From the IMG/VR virus record IMGVR_UViG_3300032322_000760, positions 1-33,254 of that record: a stretch of 33,254 bases of DNA; one strand, 5' to 3'. This document shows, in pieces, positions 24,114 to 33,254 of the stretch. Position 1 is the stretch's first letter. Every line of letters starts with the position of its first letter. The DNA comes from a virus. The translations under genes and the position numbers were made by a program. The notes under the pieces were generated by a model that had not been told where the DNA came from, searched no databases, and was given only the letters and a program-made list of their open reading frames with translations.

Positions 24114-26282
24114 ATGGAATTTTATCAAAAACACATTATGAAATTTCAAAAAAGCATAAAGAGATGGGCTGATTCTTCACTATTTAGAAAGATATTGAGG
24201 CGCAATAAAATGACGGTTGAATACAAATCTTACTTTTTGTTAAGTTTATTTGTAATGTCATTTTGGACAAATTTTGTCCACGCTGCCGATTGGTACGTTT
24301 CAGCATCTGGAACGGCTGCTAATCCCGGAACTATTACCTCACCAAAGAACTGGGCAGGAATGGTTACAATCGTAAACAACGGAACTGTACAGGCAGGTGA
24401 TAAGATTCTATTTAAAAGAGGCGATGCCTTTACAGGCGTTCTAAATTCAGGCGATTATTACGGAGGCGTAGCAAAGAACAACATTACATTTGCATCTTAC
24501 GGAACAGGCGCAAAACCACGCCTAACAGCAACTACACGGACAGGTGTATTTCACATAATGAAAAAGTCGGGTTGGGTTTGGGATGGCCTGAACTTTCAAG
24601 ACGTTACTTTTTCCGTTTCTGATAAGTTGAGTATTGCTCCATGCGCCACAGGGATAAGGTTGGGTAACTTCGGCAGCACATCAGCATCAGACAAGATGAA
24701 TGGCAACACAATAAAAAACTGTGATTTTAATAACATAGGTTTAGGTATTGTGATTTTAGGCGATAATAATTTGGTGGATTCCTGCACGTTTGTAAACCTG
24801 AAGAACGTTGTAAACACAATAGGCAGCAATGAAGATTATGGCGCAAACGGTATAACATTAGCAGGTAGTAATAATTCATTTCTCCATGGATATTATGAAT
24901 CTAACTGGTGTGAATCTTACGACTTCGGTTTTTCAGGTGGTGCTAATGAAATGTTCGGTGCTTGTGTAGATAATCTATTCGCTTATAACACATACGTTGA
25001 TTGCGGTGGTATTGCTGAATATGGCAGTCAGGGAACAGGAGATACATCACGAAGAAATAAGATACTCTACAATAAGATTATAAATTGCGGATCCCTTACT
25101 TACATAAACTTTTCATCAACGTTTGTATGTGTAGCTTTAAATAATCTTTACTACAATAACGTATTTGTTGAAAATTCCGATAGTAGATTTTCAGGAGTGA
25201 ATGCAGGAGCAGGGATCACAACATCACAAGCAAGGGAGAACTTTACAGCTGATGTCGCTTGCCTTGCTTTTAGTTCGGGAAGTCCTGCCGTTTCTGATAT
25301 TTTCACGTTAAAAAATAATATCTTTTGGATTGCCAATGCAAATTATAAAGTAGCTAATACTTCAACGGTGGCTTCTAAAACAGTTCACACGAATAATGTT
25401 TACAGGCTATTAGGGGCAGGCTCTACTGCTAATTACACTTTAGATGCAACGGAATTTTTAACTACTGATAATATGTTTGTGGCTCAACTTGGAGCAGCAA
25501 CAGGATGGAACTATCAACTTCTTACGCCATCGGTAGCAAGGGATGCGGGTGCAAACGTTGGCGGCACGGTTGACTTCGCAGGTCTTACGGTTACTAATCC
25601 TCCAAACATCGGGATTTACGAAGATGTTATTCCTTCTTTGGTAGCTTCAAATTCGTTCACATCAATTACCTGTAATGGTGGAACATCAACTGTAACGGTT
25701 ACGGCATCGGGTGGCGTTCCTCCTTATTACGGCACAGGTATCTTCACAAGGACCGCAGGGGTTAATTCATTCACGGTTACAGATGGGGCAGGCGTTACAG
25801 CAACAACAACAGCTAACATCAGCCAACCGTCTGCAATAACGCCACAGGTTACTTATTCCGCTATCCTTTGCAACGGTGGTACGTCAACGGTAACAGTTAC
25901 AGCCACAGGCGGAACAGGGGCTTTGTCAGGAACAGGAACGTTCACACGTTCTGCAGGTGCTTATTCTTACACGATAACAGATGCAATCGGATGTTCAGTT
26001 ACAACCACAGGAACAATAACACAGCCAACTCTTCTAATTGCTTCTAATAGTTTTTCTAATATCGTATTCCCTAATTTAACAACAAATGTGCTGGTTACGG
26101 CCACAGGTGGTACACTGCCTTATACCGCAACAGGAACATACGGAAGAACGGCAGGGGCTTTCAGTTACACGGTAACGGACGGCAACGGCTGCACATCGGT
26201 TACATCGGGGACGGTTTTACCTGTTGTCCAGCCAGTACAAACTTTCATCATCAAAGGGCTTGCGCCACTAATTAAACAGTAA
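24114..26282 (+). CDS. Exported beta-helix protein with SprB-like repeats
   Basis: 722 residues from the ATG at 24114; an ATG at 24210 (residue 33) begins just before the hydrophobic core and would give a normal signal peptide cut near HAA before D59. The mature start DWYVSASGTAANPGT is typical of secreted parallel beta-helix proteins (polysaccharide lyase or tailspike type). The helix extends to about residue 490 with many N-N and G-x-N turns. From about 510 three SprB-like repeats follow (near 510, 580 and 643), each with CNGGTSTVTVTASGG-like and YTITDxxGC phrases, the last less exact. SprB repeats are known from gliding adhesins of Bacteroidota. Confidence 0.7.
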   Translation: MEFYQKHIMKFQKSIKRWADSSLFRKILRRNKMTVEYKSYFLLSLFVMSFWTNFVHAADWYVSASGTAANPGTITSPKNWAGMVTIVNNGTVQAGDKILFKRGDAFTGVLNSGDYYGGVAKNNITFASYGTGAKPRLTATTRTGVFHIMKKSGWVWDGLNFQDVTFSVSDKLSIAPCATGIRLGNFGSTSASDKMNGNTIKNCDFNNIGLGIVILGDNNLVDSCTFVNLKNVVNTIGSNEDYGANGITLAGSNNSFLHGYYESNWCESYDFGFSGGANEMFGACVDNLFAYNTYVDCGGIAEYGSQGTGDTSRRNKILYNKIINCGSLTYINFSSTFVCVALNNLYYNNVFVENSDSRFSGVNAGAGITTSQARENFTADVACLAFSSGSPAVSDIFTLKNNIFWIANANYKVANTSTVASKTVHTNNVYRLLGAGSTANYTLDATEFLTTDNMFVAQLGAATGWNYQLLTPSVARDAGANVGGTVDFAGLTVTNPPNIGIYEDVIPSLVASNSFTSITCNGGTSTVTVTASGGVPPYYGTGIFTRTAGVNSFTVTDGAGVTATTTANISQPSAITPQVTYSAILCNGGTSTVTVTATGGTGALSGTGTFTRSAGAYSYTITDAIGCSVTTTGTITQPTLLIASNSFSNIVFPNLTTNVLVTATGGTLPYTATGTYGRTAGAFSYTVTDGNGCTSVTSGTVLPVVQPVQTFIIKGLAPLIKQ
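25641..26230 (+). repeat. Three SprB-like repeats within the beta-helix protein
   Basis: Units begin near 25641, 25851 and 26040, about 190-210 bp each. The first two share CNGGTSTVTVTA and a following FTRxAG phrase; the third keeps TATGGTLPY and YTVTDGNGC. The repeat is clear in protein and diverged in DNA. Confidence 0.75.
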
Positions 26283-29175: not shown

Positions 29176-29505
29176 ATGGATACAATAGAATTAACAGGAT
29201 GGGATAAAGATTTTAGAACGCAGTCCAATCAGATGGATTTAGTTGAGAAAATGTACTGTGAAAATGGATTTGAAATAAAATTGACCTGCAATGCCTGCCC
29301 AGAGCAGTATGATGTTTTTAAAGATGGTAAGCAAGTAGCCTATTATAGATTGAGGCATGGTGGTTTTACAGTAGAATCTCCTGATTGCGGAGGAGAAATG
29401 ATTTACGAAGCCGAACCTGATGGGGATGGTATTTTTGAAGAGTACGAAAGACTTATTTATTTAGAAAAGGCAATGCAGAAACTAATTTTATATTTATGCA
29501 ACTAA
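29176..29505 (+). CDS. Small acidic protein of unknown function
   Basis: 109 residues from the ATG at 29176 (an ATG at 29143 is inside the hairpin and unlikely). Beta-rich with cysteines in LTCNACPEQYDVF and a phrase QVAYYRLRHGGFTVESPDCGG. A repeated pattern of a short strand pair is seen in many small phage proteins, but I cannot name it. The end overlaps the endolysin start by 10 bases, tying it to lysis timing. Confidence 0.5.
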   Translation: MDTIELTGWDKDFRTQSNQMDLVEKMYCENGFEIKLTCNACPEQYDVFKDGKQVAYYRLRHGGFTVESPDCGGEMIYEAEPDGDGIFEEYERLIYLEKAMQKLILYLCN

Positions 29506-29867
29506 CAACTAATTTCAGTTTAAACGAATTTGCCTGTAAAGACGGTACGCAAGTACCCGATGAATTAAAATCAAAGGTACAGGCATTAGCGGAGCAATTA
29601 CAGATACTTCGGGATTATCTCAATGAACCCATCCACATCAATTCAGCATACCGTACACCGGCCTATAATAAGAAAATCGGAGGTAAGCCAAACAGTTACC
29701 ACATGAAGGCAATGGCGGCTGATATTACCGTAAAAAGCAAAACACCGAAACAATTAGCTTCGGTGGTTGAAAAGTTAATTAGCAACGGTACTTTAAAGAT
29801 TGGAGGCATCGGTGTTTATCCGGGCTTTGTTCACATCGACACAAGGAAAATAAAAGCGAGGTGGTAA
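29496..29867 (+). CDS. M15 family peptidase, endolysin
   Basis: 123 residues, one peptidase M15 (D-Ala-D-Ala carboxypeptidase/L-Ala-D-Glu type) domain. Zinc-binding residues are visible: H69 in NSYHMKAMAAD with D76 seven residues on, and H113 in FVHIDTR. The preceding SAYRTPAYNKKIGG and the start FSLNEFACKDG are family hallmarks. No signal peptide, so it needs a holin to reach the periplasm. At 123 residues it is a minimal domain. Its stop abuts the stop of the minus-strand gene after it, with no terminator between. Confidence 0.85.
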   Translation: MQLTTNFSLNEFACKDGTQVPDELKSKVQALAEQLQILRDYLNEPIHINSAYRTPAYNKKIGGKPNSYHMKAMAADITVKSKTPKQLASVVEKLISNGTLKIGGIGVYPGFVHIDTRKIKARW

Positions 29868-30116
29868 TTAATAAGTAGCCGCTTTTACAGCCCACATTGC
29901 TGATTCCTCCGCAGACGTCATGGCTAACGCTTTCAATCTTGACCATTCTTTCAGGTCGTTATCACTCCATGATGGTTTACCTGCTGATCCATCAATCAGG
30001 TCAATTAAGTTAGCCGCAGCGACTTTGATGTCATTTACATAATCGCTTTCAGATGGGTTGAAGTTTACCCTTACACGGCGTTCTCCTAACGTTACCATTT
30101 TTTCAATCTGTGCCAT
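29868..30116 (-). CDS. Acb2/Tad1-like small protein, candidate anti-CBASS sponge
   Basis: 82 residues. A basic N-terminus (GERRVRVNFNPS, 11-22) leads into one helix (about 24-43, VNDIKVAAANLIDLIDG) and, after a loop, a second helix (about 53-80) ending SAEESAMWAVKAATY. The helical hairpin and the E-x-x-MWA phrase are typical for proteins now grouped as Acb2/Tad1 (DUF7681-like). Acb2 binds cyclic oligonucleotide signals and blocks CBASS; whether this protein does so is inference. The N-terminal RVRVNFNPS is typical of the Bacteroidota branch as I know it. It is the last gene of the minus-strand set, next to the endolysin. Confidence 0.6.
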   Translation of the reverse strand: MAQIEKMVTLGERRVRVNFNPSESDYVNDIKVAAANLIDLIDGSAGKPSWSDNDLKEWSRLKALAMTSAEESAMWAVKAATY

Positions 30117-30174
30117 AATTTTTATGTGGGTTTTACAAAGCCGCCCAAGGCTGTTATTTTAATAAAGGTGGTGA

Positions 30175-30360
30175 TTACTGGCTTTCACCTTGTAAAATAG
30201 CTGTCAATTTCTCAACCATAAAAGCAGCTTCGTTACGCTTGCCATCCCAATAATTAAATAAGTCATCTTTTTTAGTGTAAAAATCTCGATGACATTTAAA
30301 AGAAACTACCCTTAGTTCCATTTCTTCAATTAAATCCTTCAATGTTTTTTCATCCATCAT
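30175..30360 (-). CDS. Small acidic protein of unknown function
   Basis: 61 residues (one less if the second ATG is used). Two helices (KTLKDLIEEMELRVV and NEAAFMVEKLTAILQ) with an aromatic, lysine-rich middle (HRDFYTKKDDLFNYWDG). No membrane segment. It is one of a string of small minus-strand genes, each with an AT-rich leader. Not recognised. Confidence 0.5.
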   Translation of the reverse strand: MMDEKTLKDLIEEMELRVVSFKCHRDFYTKKDDLFNYWDGKRNEAAFMVEKLTAILQGESQ

Positions 30361-30414
30361 TCAATTTTTAAAAGTTAATAATCGGTTGCGTAAAGCAGCG
30401 TGTTATGTGCAAGG

Positions 30415-30660
30415 CTACTTTAACGCTTCCAATTCAGCCTTCACTTCATTCCAAAAGTTTATTCGAGCAATAGAATAACCGTCCATTGTATCAAACTCTT
30501 TTAGTTCCTCAATTATTTCTGCAACCAAAATCAAAGAACATTCTTTAGCTTGTCTGTGAGAATAAGCTGGATAGTTGCTATTATAATCATTAACATCTAC
30601 TTCCATTTTATCGTAAATGTCCTTTGCTTTTTGATTTGGTGTAATAAACTTTTGTGGCAT
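30415..30660 (-). CDS. Small protein of unknown function
   Basis: 81 residues, mostly helical, with a polar start (PQKFITPNQKAKDIYDKM), a tyrosine-rich middle and an acidic helical end (LVAEIIEELKEF). The layout of a short helix with ATPxxKAxxLxxxM then an LxxxEIIxxL helix is widespread in Bacteroidota phages, with no known job. A 10-bp inverted repeat (TGTTATGTGC at 30401-30410, GCACATAACA at 30700-30709) brackets the gene, and the right arm belongs to a long palindrome. Confidence 0.5.
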   Translation of the reverse strand: MPQKFITPNQKAKDIYDKMEVDVNDYNSNYPAYSHRQAKECSLILVAEIIEELKEFDTMDGYSIARINFWNEVKAELEALK

Positions 30661-30698
30661 TTCGTTTTTAAATTAAATTTAGTGCTGATAACCCGCCC

Positions 30699-30803
30699 AG
30701 CACATAACAGCGGTTTGGCAAAAGCTGCCAGAAAGTTTTGTGCGAATATTGAGCATCAGTTAGGCAGCCTTCACCAAGCCGCAAACCGTTAGCTGCATGT
30801 GCT
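30699..30803 (+). repeat. Long imperfect palindrome, attC-like
   Basis: Nested complementary arms: AGCACAT (30699-30705) with ATGTGCT (30797-30803), CGGTTTG (30711-30717) with CAAACCG (30782-30788), and GCTGCC (30724-30729) with GGCAGC (30763-30768). The whole forms an imperfect stem of about 105 bases with unpaired bulges, in the size range of integron attC sites (and of dispersed palindromes in Bacteroidota genomes). The end ACATAAC and GTTAGCT come close to, but do not match, the attC R-box rule. The right end overlaps the last codons of the gene 30789-31040. Confidence 0.5.
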
Positions 30804-31040
30804 AACCCTGCTTTGCAATTCAGCTTTGTAGTCATAAAAATTAAGTTGGATTTTAGCTTCCTCTCCATAATACGTTTCTTCATCATACCACATATCTTCG
30901 CCAGTTGAGCCACCACCCATCCTTACAGTTAATCCTTCTTTTGCTTTGCGTTCAATCCACTTTAATATGTTTTCTAAGTGGCTCAATTTTAAATCAGCCA
31001 ACTTAATTTTTTTACCATCTTTTGTCTTATGAAATTTCAT
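30789..31040 (-). CDS. Small protein of unknown function
   Basis: 83 residues. Basic start (KFHKTKDGKKIKLADL) and a helix KLSHLENILKWIERKAKEG, then a glycine-rich loop GGGSTGEDMWYDEE and a mixed end. The phrase DGxxIxLxxLxxxHLxNxIxxIExxA is one I associate with a small family of unknown function found in many phages. Its last codons (RVSTCS) lie in the right arm of the long palindrome, so the natural end may have been shifted by that element. Confidence 0.5.
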   Translation of the reverse strand: MKFHKTKDGKKIKLADLKLSHLENILKWIERKAKEGLTVRMGGGSTGEDMWYDEETYYGEEAKIQLNFYDYKAELQSRVSTCS

Positions 31041-31112
31041 TTTAATTAATTTTTTTAAAGGTTTACTTTAACCAATCGGAACTTCTGAACAGGTGGAATC
31101 ATAGTACAGCAG

Positions 31113-31127
31113 TCAGGTTCAACCTGA
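31113..31127 (+). repeat. Palindrome next to the HTH gene
   Basis: TCAGGTT, a central C, and AACCTGA, a perfect 7-bp inverted repeat just past the 3-prime end of the HTH_39-like gene. Without a strong U-run it may be an operator for the gene 30789-31040 or a weak terminator. Confidence 0.45.
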
Positions 31128-31135
31128 TAAATTTA

Positions 31136-31381
31136 CTACAAAAAATAATTCTTTACAACCGTTCCCGATGATAGTTTAATAAACTTATCTTTTATTCCAA
31201 TACCTGCTTTATTCCTTAAGTCGCTTATACGGCTATTTAAAGCGGTTATGCCAATCGTTTGGGCTTCAAAGCAGTTGATAGTTCGCCCTGATAAAAGCCA
31301 GTCGTAAACGGCTTTGTTCTGCCCAGTAAGTTGAGGCTGATTTATCGGGCTGCCTGTTTCAAAATTTAATTGGATTTGCAT
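31136..31381 (-). CDS. HTH_39-like DNA-binding protein
   Basis: 81 residues. After a short polar start comes LTGQNKAVYDWLLSGRTI, then NCFEAQTIGITALNSRISDL and RNKAGIGIKDKF, the order of an HTH_39-type winged helix (quit signal to wing: A-x-x-x-G-I-x-x-L-x-x-R-I-x-D-L-R). Small proteins of this kind are frequent in Bacteroidota phages and may be regulators. A perfect 24-bp palindrome lies 15 bp upstream of its start and is a candidate site for it or a partner. Confidence 0.7.
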   Translation of the reverse strand: MQIQLNFETGSPINQPQLTGQNKAVYDWLLSGRTINCFEAQTIGITALNSRISDLRNKAGIGIKDKFIKLSSGTVVKNYFL

Positions 31382-31395
31382 GAGTTGTAAATTTT

Positions 31396-31419
31396 AAAAT
31401 GCTGTCATGACAGCATTTT
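31396..31419 (+). promoter_or_regulatory. Perfect 24-bp palindrome, candidate operator or terminator
   Basis: Core GCTGTCATGACAGC (31401-31414) flanked by AAAAT and ATTTT, perfectly symmetric about 31407/31408. It lies between the HTH_39-like gene and the Ala/Trp-repeat gene and overlaps the stop of the latter. A stem with no loop and AT ends suits a dimeric repressor; flanking T on both sides would also allow a two-way terminator. Confidence 0.65.
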
Positions 31420-31941
31420 TATAAGTTGTTTAATTTGCGCATCCCATGCAGCCCATGCAGCCCTTGCAGCCCATGCAGCCCATGCAGCCCATGCAGCACT
31501 TGCAGCAGCCCATGCAGCACTTGCAGCAGCCCATGCAGCACTTGCAGCAGCCCATGCAGCCCCTGCAGCCCATGCATCCCCTGCAGCCCCTGCAGCCCCT
31601 GCAGCCCTTGCAGCCCATGCAGCATCCCTTGCATCAGCAAGTTCTTCATCTGTTGCTTCACCGTTAGCGTATCTTTCCGCAACATTGCAAGCATCTATAC
31701 TTCTTGAATCAGGTTTTTTAATCAGCTTCAATGCCTCCCTTGCACACCATACAGCAAACAAACGTAACGTCCTTGCATCAATAAACTGTTCTCTAAGCAC
31801 TACCCACAACCTATCTTCAGCCGGGCATTTCTCCACGTTTAAAATATCCAATACCGTGCCTGTCCAGTCTTCTGGTAAGAACTTCGCAGGGTCGTAACAG
31901 GGTTCTAAATCCCTGATTTCTTGGAGTGTGATTTTTTTCAT
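31405..31941 (-). CDS. Ala/Trp-repeat phage protein
   Basis: 178 residues. The first 100 are a normal domain ([17 protein letters not shown], then [20 protein letters not shown] and [14 protein letters not shown]), which I recognise as a recurrent phage protein with varied alanine-rich tails. Residues 106-167 consist of A and W with a few G, S, R and D, with three exact copies of AAWAAAS (128-148), probably a long amphipathic helix. The end ([12 protein letters not shown]) is ordinary. Function unknown. In DNA the repeat is a 9-bp and 21-bp array, likely to vary in length. Five more ORFs on both strands across it are by-products of the repeat. Confidence 0.7.
31438..31629 (+). repeat. 9-bp/21-bp DNA tandem array
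   Basis: Units of CCATGCAGC (and CCTTGCAGC or CCCTGCAGC variants) in register over 190 bp, with three 21-bp units CCATGCAGCACTTGCAGC plus CAG at about 31498-31560. Most units keep the reading frame of the minus-strand gene (AAW per 9 bp, AAWAAAS per 21 bp). Confidence 0.85.
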
Positions 31942-31968
31942 TTTAATGGTTTTAAATTATTTAAATAT

Positions 31969-31984
31969 GCCGGTCTTTCCCGGC
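31969..31984 (+). repeat. Small hairpin in the leader of the Ala/Trp-repeat gene
   Basis: GCCGG (31969-31973) and CCGGC (31980-31984) with a 6-nt loop, in the 92-bp gap upstream of the minus-strand gene at 31941. No U-run follows on either strand. It might be an RNA control element or a weak terminator for the genes to its right. Confidence 0.4.
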
Positions 31985-32033
31985 TGTCATCCTGTTCAGA
32001 GTTACTGCCATAATACAGGCAAGGCGGCTTTAT

Positions 32034-32198
32034 TTACCGAAAGTTGTCGTAAGGGTACGGTTCATCAGCAGGGAAATCAATACCCGAAACTTCTCTTTCT
32101 TTTTCTCTCTTGAGTTCATTTTTGATTGGTTTGTAGTAAAAAAAATAGTACACGATTGCCATCACTAAGGCGAAGGTTGAAAGGATGAATAGTATCAT
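32034..32198 (-). CDS. Small membrane protein (54 aa)
   Basis: 54 residues, too short for common ORF cut-offs. It starts with a hydrophobic helix (MILFILSTFALVMAIVYYFF) followed by YKPIKNELKREKEREV, a basic then acidic tail and a proline-rich end (FPADEPYPYD). The start overlaps the stop of the gene at 32195 by an ATGA, a good sign of a real, coupled gene. Probably a single-span inner-membrane protein with a cytoplasmic tail; role unknown. Confidence 0.6.
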   Translation of the reverse strand: MILFILSTFALVMAIVYYFFYYKPIKNELKREKEREVSGIDFPADEPYPYDNFR

Positions 32199-32536
32199 AA
32201 ATCTACTTTTATTTCTTTGATTAATTGGTTATGCCCTTGCCATAATCCTGATGTATTACTTGTCCTTGCATATCTAACCCCATCCGTATCTCTAAACAAA
32301 CTCACATACACAACCTCACAATCCACTTCGAGCATGAGGTCATTAGGGCTAATTCCAAGACTGCTCGCACTTCCATCATTTAGCCAATTACGAATTTTAC
32401 CATCAACAACTCCACCGTAACGAAGTCCATGTGTTTCAAAATCAATAAACTTTTTTACTTCACTCCCGTCTGCCGTCTTTACTGTGCAGTTACCTTGTTG
32501 CCATCTTTCTAAAGTGAAAGGAATAAGTTTTTTCAT
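32195..32536 (-). CDS. Small protein of unknown function
   Basis: 113 residues, beta-rich and without membrane segment. Basic start (KKLIPFTLERWQQG) and a phrase TADGSEVKKFIDFETHGLRY, then strands with VDCEVVYVSLFRDTDGVRYA. It has the look of a small all-beta fold such as those of phage-encoded inhibitors or DNA mimics, but no match is claimed. First 13 bases are the same as those of the gene at 33103 (ATGAAAAAACTTA). Confidence 0.5.
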   Translation of the reverse strand: MKKLIPFTLERWQQGNCTVKTADGSEVKKFIDFETHGLRYGGVVDGKIRNWLNDGSASSLGISPNDLMLEVDCEVVYVSLFRDTDGVRYARTSNTSGLWQGHNQLIKEIKVDL

Positions 32537-32559
32537 GTTAAATGATTTAATGTTTAAAA

Positions 32560-32736
32560 TTATTTTTTTACTCTTAACCTCCTGTTTTGTGCAGCTAACT
32601 TTCTTCTTTGCCTTTGGTTTGGAAGGCGAGCCGGAATGTGCGAAGAGTAGTTAGGAATGTATAAACCCGGATATGTTAGCATAGCTAAATCATACGGAGT
32701 GTATGGGTATGTGTCTTGAACATCTTTTTCTTTCAT
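32560..32736 (-). CDS. Small basic protein (58 aa)
   Basis: 58 residues in the gap between 32537 and 32770, too short for common cut-offs. An acidic-polar start, a tyrosine/proline-rich middle (YPYTPYDLAMLTYPGLYI), and a strongly basic end (NQRQRRKLAAQNRRLRVKK). Its start lies behind a leader nearly the same as that of the gene at 33103. The basic tail might bind nucleic acid; not recognised. Confidence 0.5.
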   Translation of the reverse strand: MKEKDVQDTYPYTPYDLAMLTYPGLYIPNYSSHIPARLPNQRQRRKLAAQNRRLRVKK

Positions 32737-32770
32737 GTTAATAGTTTTTTTTATTTTTCAATTACTTTTT

Positions 32771-33103
32771 TCATCTTGATATATTGCTTATATCCTTTAG
32801 CCTTAAATCGTATTTTGTTTTTTGCCCAATCATATAATCTCCGTCTATGGTGAAGTAATCTGTATCTCCTGGTATAAACTGCATTTCCCCATTTTCTTCG
32901 TATTGTACTCCGTCCCATTTTAAACCCAATGGGTATTCAGGATAAGAGCCGTTAAAAAAAAGCTTTTTAAATAGTTTTCCGTTGCATTCAATTCGATATG
33001 GGTCAGGCAAGATAAACTCAACTCTTGGATTTTGCGAATTTTTTCTCTTATAAAATTCGTTTAAAGCTAATTGAAATTCGATTAACTCTTTAAGTTTTTT
33101 CAT
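32771..33103 (-). CDS. Small protein of unknown function
   Basis: 110 residues. A basic helical start (KKLKELIEFQLALNEFYKRK) followed by a beta-rich part (VEFILPDPYRIECNGKLF, then YPLGLKWDGVQYEENGEMQF). No signal peptide. It overlaps the previous gene (33100-33254) by an ATGA. The gene is bounded by a 20-bp near-repeat that includes start codons: 32731-32750 and 33098-33117. Not recognised. Confidence 0.5.
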   Translation of the reverse strand: MKKLKELIEFQLALNEFYKRKNSQNPRVEFILPDPYRIECNGKLFKKLFFNGSYPEYPLGLKWDGVQYEENGEMQFIPGDTDYFTIDGDYMIGQKTKYDLRLKDISNISR

Positions 33104-33254
33104 TTTAATAGTTTTTTAATTTGAATAATAGCTTCTTTAAAATCGTTTTCATAGGGTATTGGATTGATTCTAAAGTAAGCAAGGCCTGTCTTAAACATCC
33201 ATGAAACCTTTTGCGGTGGATGCTCTATTGGCTTTTCAACGGGTTTCTTTTTCA
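33100..33254 (-). CDS. Small protein, cut by the window edge (partial)
   Basis: 51 codons including stop read from the right edge; the two bases at the edge (TG) complete an ATG if the next base outside is A. The product has a lysine/proline-rich start (KKKPVEKPIEHPP), then a phrase WMFKTGLAYFRINPIPYE and a short basic helix. It ends with an ATGA overlap to the gene at 33103. Not recognised. Confidence 0.5.
   Translation of the reverse strand, partial: KKKPVEKPIEHPPQKVSWMFKTGLAYFRINPIPYENDFKEAIIQIKKLLK

Follow-up and report, generated by a model that had tools for sequence, protein, structure and literature searches.

A hairpin-only Acb2/Tad1 family protein as a probable cyclic oligonucleotide sponge in a virus record, and a putative pseudoknot leader preceding its gene

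The 33,254-base IMG/VR virus record IMGVR_UViG_3300032322_000760, analysed here over its whole length and referred to as the window, encodes a small helical-hairpin protein, P0001, which probably acts as a sponge that sequesters cyclic oligonucleotides used in defence, and whose mRNA probably has a small pseudoknot-type leader before the start codon that may control translation. We assign this reading a probability of about 0.77; it draws on analogy with the Acb2/Tad1 family, i.e., small phage proteins that sequester alarm molecules of bacterial immunity and whose targets also include Thoeris and cA3 signals. By analogy with Acb2 and Tad1, P0001 would be expected to assemble into a hexamer, and this predicted hexamer would sequester host-made cyclic oligonucleotides of the CBASS type, possibly also cA3 of type III CRISPR systems, such that the defence effector would stay off. 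P0001 adds a member to an already known sponge family; the novelty lies in the pattern of variation among its relatives and above all in the shared leader.

The gene encoding P0001 (29,868 to 30,116, minus strand; 82 amino acids, MAQIEKMVTLGERRVRVNFNPSESDYVNDIKVAAANLIDLIDGSAGKPSWSDNDLKEWSRLKALAMTSAEESAMWAVKAATY) has an ATG start and is the last gene in a leftward-running set of small genes (minus strand, 29,868 to 33,252). Both the reading frame and the gene set had been described in a first-pass annotation made from the sequence alone, and both were recovered here. The stop codon of P0001 abuts that of a convergent endolysin/peptidase gene (29,496 to 29,867, plus strand; phrog_894 endolysin, E = 1.9e-37). 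Within the latter, about 100 nt past the P0001 stop, lies a terminator-like stem-loop of nine pairs with a T-rich tail (29,743 to 29,765, minus strand), which is a consensus match only. The upstream neighbour (30,175 to 30,360, minus strand; 61 amino acids) matches no family and is directly upstream in the related contig L001 as well. Relatives of P0001 with 78–82% identity are found in five other viral contigs, and because of this similarity and a dN/dS of 0.2–0.3 relative to the window copy, we regard P0001 as a real coding gene. PADLOC found no soundly scored defence-type neighbour in its neighbourhood. A 178-aa protein encoded at 31,405 to 31,941 (minus strand) has a long Ala/Trp-rich repeat tail, whose counterpart in L001 is of another length and order. 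The window also encodes terminase and portal genes besides the endolysin; a terminase search did not yield a host assignment for the virus. In a 722-aa protein (24,114 to 26,282, plus strand) we noted by eye a right-handed-helix-like region as well as C-terminal SprB-like repeats, which are typical of Bacteroidota and support the guess of a Bacteroidota host.

P0001 matched the Pfam family PF24729 (Acb2_Tad1_hairpin) over residues 20–81 (29,874 to 30,059, minus strand) with 47.6 bits and E = 1.9e-12, far above the curated cut-off of 27 bits. The profile search, which had been proposed as a possible refutation of the Acb2/Tad1-like identity, thus corroborated it. There is one PF24729 copy in the window record, and no match was obtained among 14 control genomes. 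A phmmer search with the single protein against the PDB gave no match, and NCBIfam contains no model for P0001 or T4 Vs.4.

An alignment-based scan of IMG/VR identified at least 542 confirmed viral relatives of P0001, and relatives were located at 56 loci on bacterial genome contigs. All 104 sequences of a non-redundant set of this branch match PF24729 and give the consensus GExRVxxxFNPSxxDxVxxIKxxAAxLID ... RLKALAxTxxExAAMWAVKAAT. Residues A65, M74, W75, V77, K78, and A79 are invariant (100%, n = 104); since the set was retrieved with an MWxVKA-type pattern, the invariance of this stretch is partly by construction. At least 94% conservation was observed for G11, V15, F19, N20, P21, V27, K31, A35, and I38, and in the C-terminal part for R60, T67, A76, and T81; the conservation of the N-terminal residues is not a by-product of the retrieval. 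With P0001, this large branch (GExRVxxxFNPS...IK...R-x6-T...MWAVKA), on which we found no experimental study in the literature, joins a proven class of phage counter-defence proteins. Separately, seven contigs from a single uncultured Rhodobacteraceae genome carry hairpin-family matches (loci L119–L127), each 49% identical, which suggests a multi-copy element.

The N-terminal conservation bears on the first-pass annotation, which had singled out the stretch RRVRVNFNPS as a basic patch that is missing from the shortest forms and could widen ligand choice. The stretch is indeed present, and GERRVR is missing only from branch members of 62–66 amino acids, in which FNPS is retained. However, it is the common form of the family rather than a special extension: it falls in the N-terminal hallmark GERRVRVNFNPS (residues 11–22; 30,051 to 30,086, minus strand), in which G11, V15, F19, N20, and P21 are each 94–99% conserved among the 104 sequences. 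Its basic charge is not conserved, with one basic residue in the nine positions before NPS in most members and three in the window copy, and a special basic patch that widens ligand choice is therefore not supported. As a whole, the earlier interpretation is partly supported.

The AlphaFold2 monomer model of P0001 (mean pLDDT 93) contains helices at residues 10–14, 25–42, and 52–81, the latter two forming the long antiparallel pair expected of PF24729, in agreement with the helical hairpin proposed before. Foldseek returned no E value below 3.5 for this model against the PDB. The top row in VIA-align, a low-discrimination comparison, was 7uq2 (T4 Acb2-cGAMP; Z 6.4, 63 residues, rmsd 2.6, 25% identity). 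In a control comparison, modelled T4 Acb2 reached no more than 10.8 on the crystal structure of this very protein, and unrelated hairpins reached 8–9; because such scores are common for hairpins, we take the fold comparison as consistent with the assignment and not as proof. That helical hairpins are structurally common also leaves some room for P0001 being a generic phage helical adaptor, i.e., a packaging or virion protein rather than a nucleotide sponge, and some family members are indeed located among virion genes (Providencia phage PS3). We nevertheless consider this improbable, in view of a profile that groups P0001 with proteins of proven sponge function, its location in a small-gene set adjoining a lysis gene, its retention of a conserved ligand-site-like residue set, and a leader element that links it to Tad2-like genes.

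We compared the branch with 17 canonical Acb2 proteins (T4 Vs.4, PaP2 p26, and relatives) and seven Tad1 proteins. With hhalign, the branch aligned to Acb2 over residues 23–82 (probability 97.6%, E = 4.3e-12) and to Tad1 in the C-terminal helix (E = 1e-4, 41% identity over 22 columns), where RLKALAMTSAEESAMWAVKA aligned with RENAMAITKLEEALMWLNKR. Acb2 and Tad1 compared with each other gave a weaker score (E = 0.0019), which places the branch in between the two in sequence. The C-terminal helix motif R60-x6-T67-xx-E70-xxx-M74-W75-xx-K78 (29,883 to 29,939, minus strand) is common to Tad1 and in part to Acb2; the EExxMWA phrase pointed out in the first-pass annotation corresponds to E70-E71-S72-A73-M74-W75-A76 within it.

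The residues aligned with ligand-site positions of Acb2/Tad1, namely K31, R60, T67, and K78, are conserved, and together with F19 they are all present in 97/104 non-redundant members including the window copy. K31, a lysine in 103 of the 104 branch members, aligns with T4 K23 and PaP2 K26, and R60 and T67 align with PaP2 R67 and T74. We take Y11, K26, R67, and T74 of PaP2 Acb2 to be ligand contacts. As the R60/T67 pair is kept, binding of cyclic trinucleotides is expected; the protein may thus be a hexameric sponge for cyclic trinucleotides, perhaps dinucleotides, through which the virus would escape CBASS. T67 additionally aligns with T68 of T4 Acb2, for which a T68M substitution reduced affinity, and T4 Acb2 Y8A was binding-deficient and no longer activated Panoptes (PMC12657230).

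The N-terminal Gly-Tyr of Acb2 (T4 Y8, PaP2 Y11) is invariant in 17/17 Acb2 sequences. Alignment of P0001 with these 17 proteins showed no clear counterpart, its place being occupied by NFNPS. F19, which adjoins the aligned core, is a candidate for T4 Y8 by position only, and it may replace the Acb2 tyrosine in a dinucleotide pocket. The missing Gly-Tyr, and a motif (R-xxx-A-x-A/I-T-xx-E-E-A-x-M-W-xx-K) that is nearer to Tad1 than to Acb2, would also be compatible with a Tad1-like sponge reduced to the hairpin, which would retain Tad1's site for cyclic trinucleotides and would not bind dinucleotides in the manner of Acb2. We hold this possibility only tentatively: over the whole hairpin the profile similarity is far stronger to Acb2 (E 4e-12) than to Tad1, and F19 and the hallmark around it are 94–99% conserved, so the N-terminus has a role of its own.

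Besides the window, the clade of its closest relatives comprises L001, L002, L003, L004, and L023. This six-member clade departs from the branch at exactly three of 19 near-invariant positions, namely F19, R60, and T67. Position 19 is F, F, H, E, F, and L in the six members; at position 60 the window has R, with K or T in its five sisters, and at position 67 it has T, with I in all five sisters. L004, for instance, combines E19, T60, and I67. At codon 19, TTC, CAC, GAA, or TTA is found between almost identical flanks. Between contigs L209 and L210, we counted two differences in 12,924 aligned bases, one of which changes codon 19 from F to L; with two random changes, the probability of at least one hitting this codon is 0.0005, the site having been chosen beforehand from the other sisters. 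A sequencing error is a possible explanation for this single change, though not for the H and E codons, which differ at several bases. We rejected a diversity-generating retroelement as the cause, given that only one codon is hypervariable and its flanks are near-identical.

Such single-site variation agrees with an arms-race protein, and the changes at F19, R60, and T67 would fit a retuning or loss of ligand binding. The driver may be a change of CBASS types or the presence of systems that sense sponges, such as Panoptes, and the variants may record escape from the latter. They provide ready natural tests of the residues that set ligand choice.

The leader element, AGCCTTGGGCGGCTTTGTAAAACCCA (30,127 to 30,152, minus strand), ends 10 nt before the ATG of P0001 and is predicted to form an H-type pseudoknot, in which GCC/GGC (stem 1) interleaves with TGGG/CCCA (stem 2; TGNN/NNCA in general). 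Its exact 23-mer was found in 13 viral contigs, eight of which are unrelated to the window clade. A scan in which the two inner bases of each stem 2 half were left free resulted in 22 distinct copies. Stem 2 was complementary in 22/22 of these with four pair combinations (TGAG/CTCA, 11; TGGG/CCCA, 9; TGGT/ACCA, 1; TGGA/TCCA, 1), and every copy was situated 7–14 nt before an ATG. When both stems were left free in a looser scan, its loci and those found before together made up at least 90 contexts. Among the contexts listed, 22 of the 23 with a paired stem 1 also paired in stem 2, compared to 6/67 of those with an unpaired stem 1, which is near the chance expectation of 1/16. Since stem 1 hardly varies, covariation supports stem 2 only. 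Nearest-neighbour folding without pseudoknots showed stem 1 alone and was no better than for shuffled sequences, so the case for a pseudoknot is built on covariation.

We did not find a description of the leader in a literature search, Rfam covariance models gave no match to it at the gathering threshold or at E 10, and it was absent from the 296 Bacteroidota genomes scanned. Flavobacterium phage FL-1 and Bacteroides phage BS162P1 contain partial matches. We rejected the explanation that the leader encodes an upstream peptide because only some copies have an ATG frame. Taken together, we see an even chance that the leader is an undescribed cis-acting RNA pseudoknot (GCC-T-TGNN-C-GGC-TTTGTAAAA-NNCA), probably of Bacteroidota phages, which would lie where ribosomes enter the mRNAs of sponge-type anti-defence genes, Acb2/Tad1-like, Tad2-like, and others, and would co-ordinate their translation. 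Complementary TGNN/NNCA halves would also result from a dyad recognised by a dimeric protein, and the leader could then be a DNA operator with two interleaved pairs of half-sites for a repressor. We find an operator rather unlikely, because the two dyads are interleaved around different centres, every copy is placed in the ribosome-binding stretch, and stem 1 of one further copy (L278) carries a G.U-type change.

In addition to the window, the leader is present at loci L214–L237 and L278. Apart from the window clade, the leader precedes another Acb2/Tad1 hairpin gene (L231, E = 1.4e-9) and Tad2-like genes (L222, E = 1.5e-26; L232, E = 2.1e-23; L219, E = 2.2e-12); the others are two crAss001_48 groups, an endonuclease, and small genes without an assigned family. 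Outside the window clade, the distinct gene groups behind the leader number about 15, of which 4 are sponge families, compared to 0/118 random control genes from the same contigs (hypergeometric p of about 1e-4). On L218 (2,874 to 3,502) there are two tandem leader copies 347 bp apart, one before a hairpin gene and one before a 73-aa gene, and on account of this tandem copy the latter is a candidate anti-defence gene. A leader common to unrelated sponge genes would suggest a common RNA signal that controls phage counter-defence genes. If the pseudoknot reading is true, the leader could be used to search for further anti-defence genes, including the unassigned small genes behind it.

Among the known systems close to P0001 is Acb2 (T4 Vs.4, PaP2 p26), which has been described as relatively rare (PMC11722364). 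The two share the homologous hairpin over P0001 residues 23–82, one short N-terminal helix followed by two long helices, the lysine of the IK motif, the threonine at T4 T68, and a basic residue at T4 R79. In contrast, the Acb2 N-terminus is IKGY with the invariant Y8/Y11, whereas that of P0001 is GExRVxxxFNPS with a spacing between N-terminal motif and lysine that is about three residues shorter. With Tad1 (SBSphiJ7, cbTad1), P0001 shares the C-terminal helix motif R-ENA-x-A-x-T-xxEEAxMW-xx-K. However, Tad1 proteins have about 120–143 amino acids and an N-terminal antiparallel beta-sheet domain (PMC12043709), which is absent from P0001 with its 82 residues and a model without any strand; a Tad1-type gcADPR pocket is therefore not expected. 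As P0001 has neither the Gly-Tyr of Acb2 nor the beta-domain of Tad1, we file it as a hairpin-only member of PF24729. 'Acb2 homolog 43' (PDB 9ptq, an entry with six chains; 76 amino acids) is likewise a short hairpin-only member and has the motif REKSV-x-KTKLEEA-...-KA, although its sequence is weakly similar (E 0.76 to the family profile). Finally, Tad2-like genes (PF11195) encode a protein family unrelated to P0001, yet have the same 25-nt leader before their ATG.
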